A stretch of DNA of 64,000 nt from Methylotenera oryzisoli (GTDB taxonomy: Bacteria; Pseudomonadota; Gammaproteobacteria; Burkholderiales; Methylophilaceae): the NCBI RefSeq assembly GCF_004661485.1, contig NZ_PQVH01000011.1, forward strand, positions 1-64,000. The letters run 5' to 3'. The notes under the pieces are model-generated. The model had not been told where the DNA came from and made no database searches. It saw nothing but the letters and a program-made list of their open reading frames with translations. Both the position numbers and the translations under genes were made by a program. Position 1 is the first letter of the stretch; each line of letters opens with the position of its first letter. This document shows, in pieces, positions 21,121 through 27,687 of this stretch.

Positions 21121-21636
21121 TTAAAAGTTATCTGTACGCGTAAACAAACCAACGCGTAAGTCTGTTGCAACATAAATCTCGCGGCCATCAATCTGCATAG
21201 TAGCATCAGCAATCCCCATGACCAGTTTACGCATAATAACGCGTTTTAAATCAATGGTATAAGTTGCTTTTTTAGCAGTTGGCAGTACTTGACCTGTGAA
21301 CTTAACCTCACCTGCACCTAATGCACGACCACGGCCAGGACCACCCATCCATCCTAGATAAAAGCCCACAAGTTGCCACATCGCATCCAAACCTAAACAG
21401 CCTGGCATCACTGGGTCACCAGTAAAATGGCAATCAAAAAACCATAAATTAGGCGTGATATCCAGCTCAGCAATGATTTGACCATTGCCATATTTACCAC
21501 CCTCTTCAGTAATAGAAACGATACGATCAAACATCAACATTGGCGGCAAAGGCAATTGCGCATTGCCCTCACCAAACATTTCACCGCGACCACATTTGAG
21601 TAATTCTTCTTTTGTGAAACTATTTTGTCTTTGCAT
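21121..21636 (-). CDS. fabA: 3-hydroxydecanoyl-ACP dehydratase/isomerase
   Basis: Dehydrates 3-hydroxydecanoyl-ACP and isomerises the product to the cis-3 form, the branch point to unsaturated fatty acids. 171 aa, family length. Active-site motifs: [32 protein letters not shown], with the catalytic His in CHF and the Asp in LGLDAMWQ, and [15 protein letters not shown]. It is paired with fabB. It is divergent from the mxaR cluster; the 285-bp gap between the two starts contains the palindrome at 21828-21855. Confidence 0.97.
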
Positions 21637-21921: not shown

Positions 21922-22938
21922 ATGAGTGATGTTCAACTAGCTGATTGGCGCAACCATGCGCTTACCTTAGAGTCTGAAGTCAATAAAGTTGTGGTTGGCC
22001 AACAAACGCCAATTAGACTAATTACCACTTCAATTTTTGCCCGTGGTCACGTATTGCTTGAAGGTGACGTGGGTGTAGGTAAAACCACACTGCTACGTGC
22101 TTTTACACGCGGCATTGGCGGTGGCTACCAGCGGATTGAAGGCACCATTGACTTAATGCCTAACGACTTGGTTTACCATACTTACCTGGGTGAAGATGGC
22201 AAACCGCATGTGAGCCCAGGCCCATTGCTGATGTCTGGCGAGAATCTATCTGTATTCTTCTTTAATGAAATCAACCGTGCGCGTCCGCAGGTTCACTCAT
22301 TATTACTGCGCGTGATGGCTGAGCGTAGCCTGTCCGCCTTCAATACCGAACATTACTTTCCACACATGATTGTGTTTGCTGACCGTAACCAAGTGGAAAA
22401 AGAAGAAACTTTTGAGATTCCGTCCGCAGCACGTGATCGCTTTATGATGGAAATTCCAATTGTGGTGCCAAACGATGATGCCATCATGGAAGCTTTGGTG
22501 TTTGACACTAAATTCCATAATGTAGATGCACTGGTCGATACCGTAAAACCTGATGTACTGCAATTTGATGAGCTCAATGCATTTTCAAGTGTGATTCAAA
22601 ACAGCATTGAAGCCAGCGACACGCTGAAAAGATATGCCCTGAACCTATGGAAAGCAACTAAAGCCCCGCTGGATTACGGTGTAAAGGTTTCTGGCGTAGA
22701 CATGAACCGTCTGGTGCTTTCAGGCGCCAGCCCGCGCGGCATGAGTATGATGCTGCGAGCAGCGCGTGTAAATGCGTGGCTAAACAACCGAAATGCAGTT
22801 CTGCCGGATGACATTCATGCAGTGTTTCACTCCACTATTGCACATCGCTTGGTATTTAGCCCAGTGTATGAAATGCGCCGCACTGAGATTGCGCGTGAAA
22901 TGCTCTCAGGTATTGTGAACGCAGTCGCTGCGCCATAA
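21922..22938 (+). CDS. mxaR: MoxR-family AAA+ ATPase, MxaR
   Basis: 338 aa. Walker A is in LEGDVGVGKTTLLRAF, Walker B in LSVFFFNEINRARPQ, and sensor 2 in SGASPRGMSMMLRAARV, the MoxR pattern. MoxR ATPases act as chaperones with VWA-domain partners. Here the next genes encode a DUF58 protein and VWA proteins in the order R-S-A-C-K-L known from methanol dehydrogenase gene clusters, where they are needed for assembly and calcium insertion of the MxaFI enzyme. No mxaF, mxaJ, mxaG or mxaI lies upstream; fabA does instead. Confidence 0.9.
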   Translation: MSDVQLADWRNHALTLESEVNKVVVGQQTPIRLITTSIFARGHVLLEGDVGVGKTTLLRAFTRGIGGGYQRIEGTIDLMPNDLVYHTYLGEDGKPHVSPGPLLMSGENLSVFFFNEINRARPQVHSLLLRVMAERSLSAFNTEHYFPHMIVFADRNQVEKEETFEIPSAARDRFMMEIPIVVPNDDAIMEALVFDTKFHNVDALVDTVKPDVLQFDELNAFSSVIQNSIEASDTLKRYALNLWKATKAPLDYGVKVSGVDMNRLVLSGASPRGMSMMLRAARVNAWLNNRNAVLPDDIHAVFHSTIAHRLVFSPVYEMRRTEIAREMLSGIVNAVAAP

Positions 22939-22947
22939 CTACGGCCA

Positions 22948-22988
22948 ATCTAGCAGGTGACACTGCCGTTACAACAAACCTGCTAGAT
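22948..22988. other. Stem-loop in the mxaR-mxaS gap
   Basis: Perfect 11-bp arms ATCTAGCAGGT (22948-22958) and ACCTGCTAGAT (22978-22988) with a 19-nt loop, starting 10 bases after the mxaR stop. No T-run follows, so it may be a processing or stability hairpin, or an operator, rather than a strong terminator. The rest of the 273-bp gap holds no gene. Confidence 0.5.
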
Positions 22989-23188
22989 CTTAAGACTGGG
23001 TTATCAAGTCAGTAAGGGAAAGACGAAATAAGTCGATGAGCATGATGCAGCACGAGATGCACGGGATACAGCAGCCTAAATAGTACAAGTTGCACAACTA
23101 GGTTATGAGTAACGCAACCGTTGCATTTTCCAGCGCAGATACTCAGCTCATATTTCCGTAAAGAATGGTGTTAAAAGTAACCCACCTA

Positions 23189-23214
23189 TTGGATTTTTAT
23201 GTTGGATTTTTATG
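23189..23214 (+). repeat. Tandem 13-bp duplication at the mxaS start
   Basis: TTGGATTTTTATG occurs twice back to back (23189-23201 and 23202-23214). Each copy carries a GGA and an ATG five bases later. The second ATG (23212) starts mxaS. The first (23199) opens a 6-codon frame MLDFYD that stops at 23217-23219, overlapping the start of mxaS. Confidence 0.85.
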
Positions 23215-24072
23215 ATTGAAAATATTAAATCTTTTGACTATCACATTAGCTGGAGATCGCGCGGTCGCCATCCTGGTCGCCATGCCAGCACGCAACGTGG
23301 CATGGGGATGGAGTTTCGTGGGCACACCACCCTGCTGTCTTACCCAGACCCGCGTCGTATCGATATTCGCCAAACCATACGCGACCCGCTGGAGCAAGTG
23401 TATGTTCGCTTGTTTAACCAGAAAAGTGCCACCCCAGTTTATGTTATCTGTGACTTATCGGGCAGTATGAACTTTGGTGCAAAAAAAAGAAAAATCAAAT
23501 TAGCCGCAGAAATAGCAGAGTCAATTGCACAATCCGCAAGTGAGCATCATGACCCGTTTGGCTTTATCGGCTTTGATGAAAAAGTACGTGAGGATTGGAT
23601 TAGCACAACCTCTTTCAAGTCTCACCATGCAATTACAATGGCAGAGTCATTAAAAGACTTCCACCCAGCACAGGTAAACTGCAATGGCATTACAGAAGTT
23701 TACCGCTATCTGCCACGCGAACGTTCACTGGTGTTTTTGATTTCAGACTTCCACATGCCGAACAGCTTGCTGGAGAGTGCATTATCTAACCTGTTGCGCC
23801 ATCATATTGTACCGATGGTGTTATGGGACTCTGCAGAATATAGAAACTTGCCAGAATTTGGCTTAGTCAATGTAGATGATGCGGAAACTGGCGAAAAACG
23901 CACCTTATTTTTGCGCAAAGAGTTACGCGAAAAAATCGTGCAGTCCTTTGAAAGTAGACGCAATGAAATATACGAGCTTTTTATGCGCTTCGACATGCCG
24001 CCTTTTTATGTAGAAGGTGAGTTTGACGCAGACTCGCTGACAGAATACTTTCATCAATTTGTAGCCGCTTAA
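23212..24072 (+). CDS. mxaS: MxaS, DUF58/VWA-like protein
   Basis: 286 aa, cytoplasmic, without membrane segments. The DUF58 core is clear: WRSRGRHPGRHASTQRGMGMEF, PDPRRIDIRQTIRDPLEQVYVR and a metal-binding DLSGSMNFG (MIDAS pattern D-x-S-x-S-M). C-terminally it reads FLISDFHMP and VPMVLWDSAEYRNLP. DUF58 proteins work with MoxR ATPases. It follows mxaR after an unusually long 273-bp gap with a hairpin and a duplicated start region. The role in methanol dehydrogenase maturation is inferred from the family cluster. Confidence 0.87.
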   Translation: MIENIKSFDYHISWRSRGRHPGRHASTQRGMGMEFRGHTTLLSYPDPRRIDIRQTIRDPLEQVYVRLFNQKSATPVYVICDLSGSMNFGAKKRKIKLAAEIAESIAQSASEHHDPFGFIGFDEKVREDWISTTSFKSHHAITMAESLKDFHPAQVNCNGITEVYRYLPRERSLVFLISDFHMPNSLLESALSNLLRHHIVPMVLWDSAEYRNLPEFGLVNVDDAETGEKRTLFLRKELREKIVQSFESRRNEIYELFMRFDMPPFYVEGEFDADSLTEYFHQFVAA

Positions 24073-24090
24073 ATCACTTAAAAAATCATC

Positions 24091-25083
24091 ATGACAAAAT
24101 ATTTTAGAGACCTATTACTCGCCGCCATTCTAAGCATTACCTCGCTTCAGGCACTGGCACTTGATAGTCAAAACCTGCCTGATGTGGATGAAGGCATAGT
24201 TAGCATTAGTACCGTAGACCCCTTTAAGCGGGTTGGATATACCGTTGGGGATGTGATTGAAAGAGAAGTCACACTAACCATCAAAGCACCGTACAAACTG
24301 GTAGAGACCTCGCTACCGATTGTTGGCTACGAGAAGCGCTACAAAGGTAAAGTGATTGGGATTGAGCTAAAAGAGATTCAGCATAGCAAAGTAGAGCATA
24401 AAGATTACGCCACGCACCAACTTAAACTTGCTTACCAAGTGTTTACCAACAGCGTTGTTGCCAAAAATGCCGCACTTGGCCCTGAGTATTTGCAATTAGT
24501 GAACACCAAAAATAGCAAACAGTTGGTCAAATATCGTGTGCCTAGCCTGGATATTGCGGTTTCACCGATCGCAATTTTTGGCCAAGTTAAAGTAGAAAAC
24601 AATATGAGCACGTTTCTTGAGCCTTTACTGTTAAAGAATGATCAAGAAAAAACCAGACTGAAACTTGCAGCTGGTGCGCTGGTATTGAGCCTGCTTGCAT
24701 TACTCTACATTTTTGGTAAGCACGCATGGCTGCCGCGCATGGGGGGGAACTTTGCTAAAACTTACCGTGCAATTAAAAAACTACCACACAACGATGAAGG
24801 CCTAAAACAAGCAGTGGCTGCAGTACATCATGCCTTTAACCAGACCGCGAAAGTCAGTGTTTTTAACGGCAATGTAGATGAGTTCCTCGCAAGCAACCCG
24901 AACTTCCTACATATCAAAAATGAAATATCACAGTTCTTTGGATTATCTCGCCAAGTGTATTTTGAGCCCAGCGCAGTGCACAGCGTAGGTAGCAACCCGA
25001 CACTGTGGCTATTGAAATTCACCAAGCAATGCCGTGACTGCGAACGCGGCTTAATTCCAACCACCAACAGGGCTGGAGTTTAA
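24091..25083 (+). CDS. mxaA: MxaA, methanol dehydrogenase maturation protein
   Basis: 330 aa. A signal peptide (MTKYFRDLLLAAILSITSLQALA), then a periplasmic beta-rich domain (about 25-185: GYTVGDVIEREVTLTIKAPYKLVETSLP), one membrane helix (LAAGALVLSLLALLYIFGK, about 190-210) and a cytoplasmic tail with helices. It lies between mxaS and mxaC, as in mxa operons. MxaA is required in Methylobacterium for calcium incorporation into methanol dehydrogenase (family knowledge). The call rests on topology and gene order; sequence alone would give only a hypothetical protein. Confidence 0.78.
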   Translation: MTKYFRDLLLAAILSITSLQALALDSQNLPDVDEGIVSISTVDPFKRVGYTVGDVIEREVTLTIKAPYKLVETSLPIVGYEKRYKGKVIGIELKEIQHSKVEHKDYATHQLKLAYQVFTNSVVAKNAALGPEYLQLVNTKNSKQLVKYRVPSLDIAVSPIAIFGQVKVENNMSTFLEPLLLKNDQEKTRLKLAAGALVLSLLALLYIFGKHAWLPRMGGNFAKTYRAIKKLPHNDEGLKQAVAAVHHAFNQTAKVSVFNGNVDEFLASNPNFLHIKNEISQFFGLSRQVYFEPSAVHSVGSNPTLWLLKFTKQCRDCERGLIPTTNRAGV

Positions 25084-25085
25084 CC

Positions 25086-26075
25086 ATGGCTTTTTCTCAT
25101 CCATGGGTATTATGGCTGCTCCCTTTAGCACTTTTACCTTTGCTATTACAGCGTGCGCATGCCAAGCACTATTCTTGGGTAGATATGCTCCCTGCAGATC
25201 CACTCTCGAATCTGATTGGTCTAATTTTAAAAATATTAGCAGTCTTAACACTCATTTTTATTATATTAGGCTTAGCCGCACCGCATACCACCGAGCAAAA
25301 AGTGGAGCGTATTGGTGTTGGCGCACAAATCGCGCTGGTATTAGATCGCAGTGCCAGTATGGATGATCCATTTTCTGGCACTACAGACCATAATGGCAAC
25401 ACCACGGTCGGCGAAACTAAGTCCGTCGCGGCAGCTAGACTGATTACTGAATTTGTGAAGTCACGTCAGCAGGATATGTTTGGCATGATTACCTTTAGTA
25501 ACTCTGCCATGTATGTGTTGCCACTGAGTGAAAATAAAAAAGCCGTGATTGCAGCAGTGCAGGCAACCGCAGGTAACGCACTATTTCAAACCAATATTGG
25601 CAGTGGTTTAACCAGTAGCGCAGGACTGTTTGATAAAGTCACTGACTCAGGTTCACGTGCGGTTATCCTGCTCTCAGACGGTGCCGGACGGATAGATGCT
25701 GATACACAGCAAAAAATCCGGGACTGGTTTCAACGCCTAAACATTAGCTTATATTGGATAGTGTTACGCCAGCCTGGCGGACTCAGTATTTTTGACCCGA
25801 ACTTTGTTCCGGTGGAAGACCAGCCCTTACCTGCACAAATTGAGCTGCACGAGTATTTCCAGACATTTAAAACACCATTTAAAGCTTATGAGGCAGAAGA
25901 CCCTAAATCACTGCAATTAGCCATGAATGATATTAACAATCGTGAGAAGAAGCCCATTAAATACGTTGAGAAAGTTCCGGGGCGAGAGTACACAAACATT
26001 TGCTTTATGATTGCCACAATCATGATTGCACTATTACTGGCCGTTAAAAGAATAGAGGTAACGACATGGCATTAG
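25086..26075 (+). CDS. mxaC: MxaC, membrane-anchored VWA protein
   Basis: 329 aa. Two N-terminal membrane helices (WVLWLLPLALLPLLLQ and IGLILKILAVLTLIFIILGL) and one at the C-terminus (ICFMIATIMIALLLAV) flank a cytoplasmic or periplasmic VWA domain with MIDAS residues in LVLDRSASMDD, TF-type threonine in FGMITFSNSA and RAVILLSDGAGR. It begins two bases after the mxaA stop and overlaps mxaK by 10 bases. It is the BatA-like member of the R-S-A-C-K-L set. Confidence 0.85.
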   Translation: MAFSHPWVLWLLPLALLPLLLQRAHAKHYSWVDMLPADPLSNLIGLILKILAVLTLIFIILGLAAPHTTEQKVERIGVGAQIALVLDRSASMDDPFSGTTDHNGNTTVGETKSVAAARLITEFVKSRQQDMFGMITFSNSAMYVLPLSENKKAVIAAVQATAGNALFQTNIGSGLTSSAGLFDKVTDSGSRAVILLSDGAGRIDADTQQKIRDWFQRLNISLYWIVLRQPGGLSIFDPNFVPVEDQPLPAQIELHEYFQTFKTPFKAYEAEDPKSLQLAMNDINNREKKPIKYVEKVPGREYTNICFMIATIMIALLLAVKRIEVTTWH

Positions 26076-26659
26076 CTATTAAAACAACCATAGCCAACTT
26101 TATTTCATTAAAAAAATTAACACACTTTTTTAATGTAAAAGTCCTATCATGGCTCTTCATCATCATTGCACTGCTAGCCAGCACTGCTTGCATCTACTAC
26201 TTTAATCGCATTCAGCAGATTGATGCATTTAACACTGCAATCAGCACAGGCAAACAGCCTAAAACTGATTTGCAAAGCTTTGAAGCTAAATTCTCAACTG
26301 CTTATTGGCTGGCAAAAAATGAACGCTACAAAGAGTCTACCCTGCTCTTTAATAAAGCGCTGAATGGCGCAACCATAGAGCAAAAAGCAGCGATTCAATA
26401 TAACCTAGGCAATATCTTTTTCAGGCGTGGGCTGGCAATCGCGGGCACCAACATGACAGTACATGATGAAGCCGAATACCTGCTCAACCAAGCTAAAAAG
26501 GCTTACCAGCTTTCTTTAAGGCAAGACAATAGCAACTGGAGAGCAAGGCATAATTTAGACCGTCTGTTGACTATGCTACCAGAGAACCCGACACCAGGGG
26601 CTGGTGAAGGCGATTCACCAGGCTTAATCATGGGCAACATCCCGGTAGGCTTACCTTAA
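26066..26659 (+). CDS. mxaK: MxaK, membrane protein with TPR-like region
   Basis: 197 aa. One membrane helix (VLSWLFIIIALLASTACIYYF, about 28-48) and a periplasmic helical part resembling tetratricopeptide repeats: FSTAYWLAKNERYKESTLLFNKAL, then AAIQYNLGNIFFRRG and AKKAYQLSLRQDNSNWRARHNLDRLLTML. Position between two VWA genes matches MxaK. In Methylobacterium mxaA, mxaK and mxaL mutants make calcium-free methanol dehydrogenase (family knowledge). Confidence 0.78.
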   Translation: MALAIKTTIANFISLKKLTHFFNVKVLSWLFIIIALLASTACIYYFNRIQQIDAFNTAISTGKQPKTDLQSFEAKFSTAYWLAKNERYKESTLLFNKALNGATIEQKAAIQYNLGNIFFRRGLAIAGTNMTVHDEAEYLLNQAKKAYQLSLRQDNSNWRARHNLDRLLTMLPENPTPGAGEGDSPGLIMGNIPVGLP

Positions 26660-26697
26660 AGCTAAGGCTGAATAACTGAGAGACTGATTGATTCATT

Positions 26698-27687
26698 ATG
26701 CATCCAATTTATAATTATTTACGTCACCGCAAAGATGTAGCTCTATTGCTCGCTGCTTTTTTACTATTGGTCATCGCATTGTTTAATCCGAAGATTCCAA
26801 TCAAGCGCAATATCTACAGCTACTTATTTGCCGTGGATATCTCACAAAGCATGAATGTGGTGGATAAAACCATTAATGGAAAACCAGTTTCACGCTTAGT
26901 CTATACGCAAGATACATTGCACAAACTCGTCAGTGAACTGCCATGCGGCACCAATATCAGCATTGGTTTATTTGCAGGCGTCAGTGTAGCCGCGCTTTAT
27001 ACACCAATCGAAGTTTGCGAGAACTTTGACGCGATCAACGACACCATCGACCATTTTGATTGGCGTAATGGCTGGTCAGGTAATAGCAGAATTAGATCCA
27101 GCATGCCTGTATTGGCTAAAACCATACGCTCGTTCCCTGCACCTGCCCAAGTTGTGTTTTTTACAGATGGTGAAGAAGCGCCTAAGCTGCATATTTTTAA
27201 TAGACAGGACCTGACCTCTTTTCAAGGTGGCGATGATTGGCTATTTGTCGGGGTAGGTTCTGACAAGGGCACCCCTATCCCCAAATTTGATGAATTTAAC
27301 CAACTCATCGGTTACTGGGCAAATGAAAGCTTTGCCATGCAACCTGGTATTGCCCAAATTTCAGAATCAAATTTAGGCACCCGAAATGATAGCGTAGCGA
27401 GTGGCGAAGGCGACCGCTATTTATCCAAACTTGATGAGGCCTACTTAAAAGACTTGGCAAAAGAAATTAATGGCATGTACGTGCGTGCGGACAGTGTGAG
27501 CGCTATTCTGAGCGCAATGAAAAAGCAAAAACCAGCGCGCCGCGACAACGCTAATTTTGAAATCCGTTGGATTTTAGCGAGCTTGGCTGGGGTATTATTT
27601 ATATTTGCCTACCTGCCTAAACACCCGCTACATGAACTAAAAACACAGTGGCGAACTTTAGTAAGCCGTCGACGCCCAGTTAAATAA
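26698..27687 (+). CDS. mxaL: MxaL, VWA-domain protein
   Basis: 329 aa. An N-terminal helix (VALLLAAFLLLVIALFNP) and a C-terminal one (WILASLAGVLFIFAYLP) bracket a VWA domain with the MIDAS motif in FAVDISQSMNV, ISIGLFAG and VVFFTDGEEAP. It ends the mxaRSACKL run; no mxaD, mxaE, mxaH or mxaB follows, the next gene being ygfX on the other strand. Proposed role with MxaA and MxaK: metal loading of a methanol dehydrogenase encoded elsewhere. Confidence 0.82.
   Translation: MHPIYNYLRHRKDVALLLAAFLLLVIALFNPKIPIKRNIYSYLFAVDISQSMNVVDKTINGKPVSRLVYTQDTLHKLVSELPCGTNISIGLFAGVSVAALYTPIEVCENFDAINDTIDHFDWRNGWSGNSRIRSSMPVLAKTIRSFPAPAQVVFFTDGEEAPKLHIFNRQDLTSFQGGDDWLFVGVGSDKGTPIPKFDEFNQLIGYWANESFAMQPGIAQISESNLGTRNDSVASGEGDRYLSKLDEAYLKDLAKEINGMYVRADSVSAILSAMKKQKPARRDNANFEIRWILASLAGVLFIFAYLPKHPLHELKTQWRTLVSRRRPVK

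Follow-up and report, generated by a model that had tools for sequence, protein, structure and literature searches.

Which enzyme is served by a complete set of methanol dehydrogenase accessory genes when no methanol dehydrogenase gene stands beside it? The question is raised by a stretch of 64,000 nucleotides from Methylotenera oryzisoli (Methylophilaceae; NCBI RefSeq assembly GCF_004661485.1, contig NZ_PQVH01000011.1, positions 1 to 64,000 of the forward strand), called here the window, which contains a set of mxaR, mxaS, mxaA, mxaC, mxaK and mxaL genes at 21922-27687, hereafter cluster A. Genes of this kind normally act in assembling a calcium-dependent methanol dehydrogenase. An initial annotation had left two readings: in a strain relying on XoxF, the lanthanide-type enzyme, the set would need a client other than the calcium enzyme MxaFI, or else it was left over after mxaF was lost. 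The first is supported and the second is not: relatives with the full mxaFJGI-RSACKLD operon carry cluster A too, and the two copies are of different lineages. Judging from co-occurrence and by elimination, cluster A is probably a complete standalone maturation cluster for a methanol dehydrogenase dependent on pyrroloquinoline quinone (PQQ), and its client in this genome would most likely be XoxF. The six genes are themselves a separate copy of the set, one that travels with XoxF, and so are probably helpers of that enzyme rather than leftovers. The genes and their anchor are as follows (genomes, contigs and loci are cited by our handles, G, C and L with a number; G060 is a genome of the same genus; dN/dS is the ratio of nonsynonymous to synonymous substitution rates).

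21121..21636, - strand: fabA, conserved divergent neighbour; anchor of cluster A with no part in its function; adjoins mxaR in 13/13 A clusters of the tree set
21922..22938, + strand: mxaR, MoxR-type AAA+ ATPase; Pfam AAA_3 1.7e-24; Walker A intact, Walker B FFFNEINRA; 97.9% identical to the G060 orthologue, dN/dS 0.013
23212..24072, + strand: mxaS, DUF58 protein; Pfam DUF58 5.6e-24; metal-site motif CDLSGS; dN/dS 0.019
24091..25083, + strand: mxaA; no Pfam match; A-type match in 115/120 family genomes; C-terminal RDCERG
25086..26075, + strand: mxaC, VWA protein, BatA-like; VWA_2 8.3e-11; BatA_Lepto 7.1e-15, below cut-off; metal-site motifs intact
26066..26659, + strand: mxaK; 87.8% identical to the G060 orthologue, dN/dS 0.039; no Pfam match
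26698..27687, + strand: mxaL, VWA protein, BatB-like; VWA_2 1.2e-6; BatB_Lepto 3.7e-7, below cut-off; DISQS motif intact

Methanol dehydrogenases of the genome

The genome (2,664,030 bases in 20 contigs, completeness rating 100%) was searched for mxaF, mxaI and xoxF, the check that the initial annotation had proposed. A model search found no MxaI; the same model matched in 36/120 genomes of the family, but in 0/14 named control genomes. A search for PQQ dehydrogenases gave three strong matches, two XoxF and one enzyme of another type; there was no MxaF among these three, further matches below 40 bits at C14:472k and C11:183k being unexamined. The search for a close MxaD was likewise negative (best match 39%, a paralogue that also occurs in G060 and G112 beside true MxaD); mxaE, mxaH and mxaB were not searched for. 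An mxaFJGI operon elsewhere in the genome, the finding named in advance as fatal to the proposal, was thus looked for in the form of mxaF, mxaI and linked genes and was not found. The reading of cluster A as one half of a split operon was rejected, MxaI, MxaF and close MxaD all having failed to appear.

Both XoxF of the genome have the Asp of the lanthanide site (PHDEWDYDG), and the three MxaF of the family that were aligned, those of G060, G112 and G021, read PHDEWDFAG at this position. The third PQQ dehydrogenase (L056:9406-11217), with PHDIWGYDV, is 30-32% identical to XoxF of the same genome and to the G060 MxaF. The xoxF on contig C20 has xoxJ-like, xoxG-like and oxidoreductase genes behind it; the first two take their names from the gene order given in PMC4109929 and from their resemblance to MxaJ and MxaG. 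This resembles the xoxFJG unit of the XoxF4 system (PMC6028718), except that the accessory set is not adjacent to the C20 xoxF. By analogy with Methylotenera mobilis JLW8, both enzymes would be of the XoxF4 subtype. The genome contains a second complete mxaRSACKL set outside the window, at C14:197515-202826. Its nearest relative in the sample, G069, has MxaA 92% identical to that of the window, two MxaA in all, matches to XoxF of 98% and 75%, and no MxaI.

The configuration itself, mxaRSACKL with xoxF and no mxaFJGI, is already published for Methylotenera (PMC4109929). According to that paper MxaRSACKL and XoxFJG belong to the core genome of Methylophilaceae, and M. mobilis JLW8 and M. versatilis 301 each have two accessory copies and xoxF but no mxaFJGI (its Table 4); both strains grew on methanol plates with lanthanum. 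The window genome is like them in its two accessory sets and zero MxaI, and like JLW8 in its two XoxF. Unlike the present analysis, the paper, in the part covered here, counts accessory copies without separating lineages or testing what each copy tracks with. The presence of mxa genes in a genome is, taken alone, no sign of MxaFI.

Three lineages of the accessory set

Cluster A has the six accessory genes of the mxaFJGI-RSACKLD operon in identical order. It differs from that operon in lacking mxaFJGI and mxaD, and its proteins are of another lineage. In the same-genus genomes G060 and G112, the full operon contains what we call set C, with a further set, B, adjoining it. With C-type MxaA the protein of the window shares only 22-23% identity, and with the B type 29-31%; its C-terminus is not that of the C type. 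A tree of MxaR, MxaS, MxaC and MxaL (FastTree, local support values; 57/58 clusters; L145, cut by its contig, was left out) recovers a clade of A, B and two intermediate sets (support 1.0) from which C is excluded, so that the accessory proteins of cluster A are not of the MxaFI-linked lineage. These sets further group with 13/19 sets from the rest of the order (support 0.996); the point at which C branches with respect to the order-level sets has no support (0.182). Cluster A is thus a paralogue separate from the MxaFI-linked copy. In all 13/13 A clusters examined (the window, L060, L063-L069, L072, L074, L081 and L082), fabA stands beside mxaR, and lineage A occupies this site also in relatives with the full mxaFJGI-RSACKLD operon, G060 and M. 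mobilis 13. Set B lies immediately downstream of xoxF in G051 and G107; no MxaI was found in G051, and G107 has one, elsewhere in its genome.

The C-terminus of A- and B-type MxaA is mostly RDCERG-like, with a conserved Cys, and this feature is absent from the three MxaFI-linked MxaA that were aligned. In G081, cluster A ends in two tandem mxaL-like genes (L067:1140-3266).

Cluster A is under strong purifying selection. Between the window and G060, dN/dS is 0.013-0.039 across its six genes, compared with 0.017 for fabA, 0.076 for fabB, 0.057 for ygfZ and 0.013 for eno; these ratios are rough, because dS exceeds 1.5 for several genes including mxaA, mxaK and mxaL. For cluster B, dS is saturated and consequently no ratio is given. 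The earlier argument that intact reading frames point to use is borne out by the low ratios in all six genes.

Co-occurrence with XoxF

In Methylophilaceae the distribution was studied in 120 genomes, 93 of them classed as good. A-type MxaA, called at a score above 200 bits and confirmed by the tree in 13 cases, is present in 115 of the 120 and in 92 of the 93 good genomes, and a match to the XoxF of the window genome is found in 119/120 and 93/93, respectively. MxaI occurs in only 34 of the good genomes and the sole good genome devoid of A-type MxaA has MxaFI; hence all 59/59 good genomes without MxaI carry A. Cluster A is the core accessory copy of Methylophilaceae. The genomes without A-type MxaA are G021 and G039, which gave weak matches only, and G070, G089 and G100, which gave none. 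Retention extends down to genomes of 1.3 Mb: G015, G034, G046 and G065, each a single contig of 1.3-1.4 Mb, have one match to the XoxF of the window genome (at E 0.001), one MxaA, of the A type, and no MxaI. The full six-gene set stands at fabA in G015 and G034, and it is also complete in G013, of the same size range.

Outside the family the sample was the rest of the order (399 genomes, 14 from the family and 385 outside it), XoxF being scored as present at an identity of at least 69% among the matches listed, a count that could miss short fragments. MxaA was found in 20 of the 385 genomes, from 12 families, and MxaI in 0/20 of these. XoxF was present in at least 33 of the 385, namely in 18/20 genomes with the set versus 15/365 without it (Fisher p = 5e-20, kinship ignored). 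The set therefore co-occurs with XoxF where MxaFI is absent. Among the 20 order-level loci carrying it, several of which are shortened by contig ends, xoxF is present in 4, once as a fragment, and mxaF in 0.

The client of cluster A

Several observations weigh against XoxF as the client. No xoxF is adjacent to the set of the window, although the sister set B does adjoin it in G051 and G107. Nor does the set always accompany XoxF: outside the family, 15/33 genomes with XoxF (among the matches listed) lack it, and 2/20 set-bearing genomes, G120 and G431, have no XoxF at 69% or above among the matches listed. G120 has an xoxF fragment at a contig end, and G431, with a completeness rating of 85%, no XoxF match among those listed. 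In loci from outside the order, mxaF with Ala at the metal site adjoins the set in 9/9 cases. Within the family, G021 (L129 = G021:C1:413001-432000; L073), the only good genome without A-type MxaA, has XoxF, MxaFI and set C with neither A nor B, and no mxa genes at its fabA site; set C may thus stand in there, or no set is needed. In 9/93 good genomes the best XoxF match is partial (E above 1e-100), and the A-type MxaA match of G011 spans two TGA codons. From the literature, MxaA, MxaC, MxaK and MxaD of Methylosinus OB3b drop under cerium and ore while XoxF rises (PMC12482762), from which it follows that the OB3b set goes with MxaFI. A 2024 review in ISME J, citing Keltjens 2014, states that XoxF does not require mxaACKLD or mxaRSEH (PMC11845868), and the co-occurrence of cluster A with XoxF is in tension with this statement. 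We found no expression or biochemical data for cluster A in the literature, as far as titles and the openings of abstracts reveal. For the question whether XoxF can be served by set C, G021 is a natural experiment.

Three other explanations were weighed. According to the first, A and B divide the labour, B working for one XoxF and A for the other XoxF or another enzyme. The position of B directly 3' of xoxF in G051 and G107 would fit such a scheme, and cluster A has a further xoxF at a distance of 12.5-20.6 kb in at least 13 genomes (selected by eye; 10 belong to one genus). The latter is weak evidence, given the ordinary look of the intervening genes and the predominance of one genus. In the four small genomes with a single XoxF-family match, however, the single MxaA is of the A type, so that A would have to do the work unaided there, if XoxF needs a set. 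We regard this division as unlikely.

Bat (aerotolerance) operons are laid out as MoxR, DUF58, VWA, VWA. Cluster A likewise has a MoxR protein, a DUF58 protein and two VWA proteins, and it could on this account be a Bat-like system serving some other periplasmic or envelope client instead of a methanol dehydrogenase. MxaC and MxaL do match the BatA and BatB models, but below the cut-off (54.8 of 380 bits and 29.6 of 350 bits, respectively), the models being those of Leptospira, and the 15 of 33 XoxF genomes outside the family that lack the set (among the matches listed) also speak for this explanation. On the other hand, unlike a Bat operon, cluster A includes MxaA and MxaK, which match nothing in Pfam or NCBIfam, and its distribution tracks XoxF: only 2/352 order genomes outside the family without XoxF at 69% or above, among the matches listed, have the set, one of them with the contig-end xoxF fragment. 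Moreover, homologous sets outside the order are linked to mxaF in 9/9 loci, and in G051 and G107 xoxF is the gene that precedes sister set B. A client of this other kind is quite improbable in our opinion.

The last explanation, a leftover of a lost mxaFJGI-RSACKLDEHB operon retained by chance, could draw on the failure to find mxaFJGI and true mxaD in the genome, on the full operon of some same-genus genomes and on the case of Sphaerotilus, where incomplete mxa accessory sets unaccompanied by MxaFI have been interpreted as reductive evolution (PMC13300288), but it was set aside as extremely improbable, given that same-genus genomes with the full operon also carry A at a separate locus beside fabA, that A belongs to a clade other than that of the MxaFI-linked copy, that its dN/dS values indicate strong purifying selection and that the set is complete in the 1.3-1.4 Mb genomes G015, G034 and G013.

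We thus return to XoxF as the probable client. MxaR, a MoxR-type ATPase presumed to be cytoplasmic, would together with MxaS drive a membrane-anchored periplasmic complex, in which the VWA proteins MxaC and MxaL would be joined by MxaA and MxaK, all these locations being predicted. The complex may fold the exported apo-enzyme and help to place its metal and PQQ. MxaACKL have been assigned to calcium insertion (PMC6028718); cluster A would probably handle a lanthanide instead of calcium. The two XoxF4 enzymes of JLW8 are described as lanthanide-dependent (PMC6028718), xoxF mutants of this strain point to a role in methanol oxidation (PMC3728764), and pelagic Methylophilaceae are reported to have XoxF4-1 only (PMC6794327). 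A stronger version of the proposal, that Methylophilaceae possess a maturation machine dedicated to XoxF4, cluster A folding or metal-loading the lanthanide enzyme contrary to the printed view, could in our judgement equally well turn out right or wrong. If it is true, a single cell would hold two paralogous machines, one for MxaFI and one for XoxF.

To our knowledge, the route by which lanthanides enter XoxF is unsolved. Retention of the set in 59/59 good MxaI-free Methylophilaceae, down to genomes of 1.3 Mb, makes its six proteins candidates for lanthanide loading of XoxF, and sits uneasily with the statement that mxa accessory genes serve only the calcium enzyme. Among the papers listed in literature searches, none had a title or opening of its abstract that reports mxaRSACKL genes being tested for XoxF in Methylophilaceae.

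Gene products and surroundings of cluster A

The six frames of cluster A, defined as the mxaRSACKL set at 21922-27687, are intact, lie on one strand (+) and follow the order R-S-A-C-K-L, as first annotated. The annotation was also right in placing fabA on the left and no methanol dehydrogenase gene at either side: to the left lie fabA and fabB, encoded on the opposite strand, and to the right a YgfX/CptA-like gene and ygfZ (fabA, fabB and ygfZ being named by eye). The proteins are identified as Mxa by their homologues, which belong to the mxaFJGI-linked set of a same-genus genome and to mxaF-linked sets in 9 genomes outside the order; for MxaA and MxaK there was no Pfam or NCBIfam match at E 0.001. 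MxaA is predicted to have an N-terminal helix, a beta region, a long helix, which is likely to span the membrane, and a helical C-terminal region, in an AlphaFold model of low confidence (mean predicted local distance difference test score 52.9). No credible relative of MxaA was found among solved structures (best E 0.13), and MxaC matched one chain there, 4rck (4.7e-6).

The metal-site motifs of the VWA proteins and the Walker A motif of MxaR are intact in the window. In the Walker B motif of MxaR, D is replaced by N (NE.NRA) in 57/57 aligned clusters, Walker A being intact.

The gap between mxaR and mxaS is long (22939-23211) and houses an inverted repeat:

22950..22986, no strand: inverted repeat CTAGCAGG...CCTGCTAG in the mxaR-mxaS gap; one match in the window, 0 in 100 shuffles; present at the G060 orthologue

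Exact copies of this repeat occur only at the window and G060 loci among 162 loci. Scans for promoters and terminators gave site numbers no higher than in shuffled sequences.

A MocR-type regulator (GntR plus aminotransferase domain, as seen in L058, L069 and L070) is a neighbour of xoxF in some genomes and of cluster B in others (L066-L070; L058:6441-7907, L061 and L062). The regulators of L058 and L070 share 47-74% identity with one another and with those of L062, L068 and L069, and about 22-24% with those of L066 and L067. A regulator of this type may link the regulation of xoxF to that of the accessory set.

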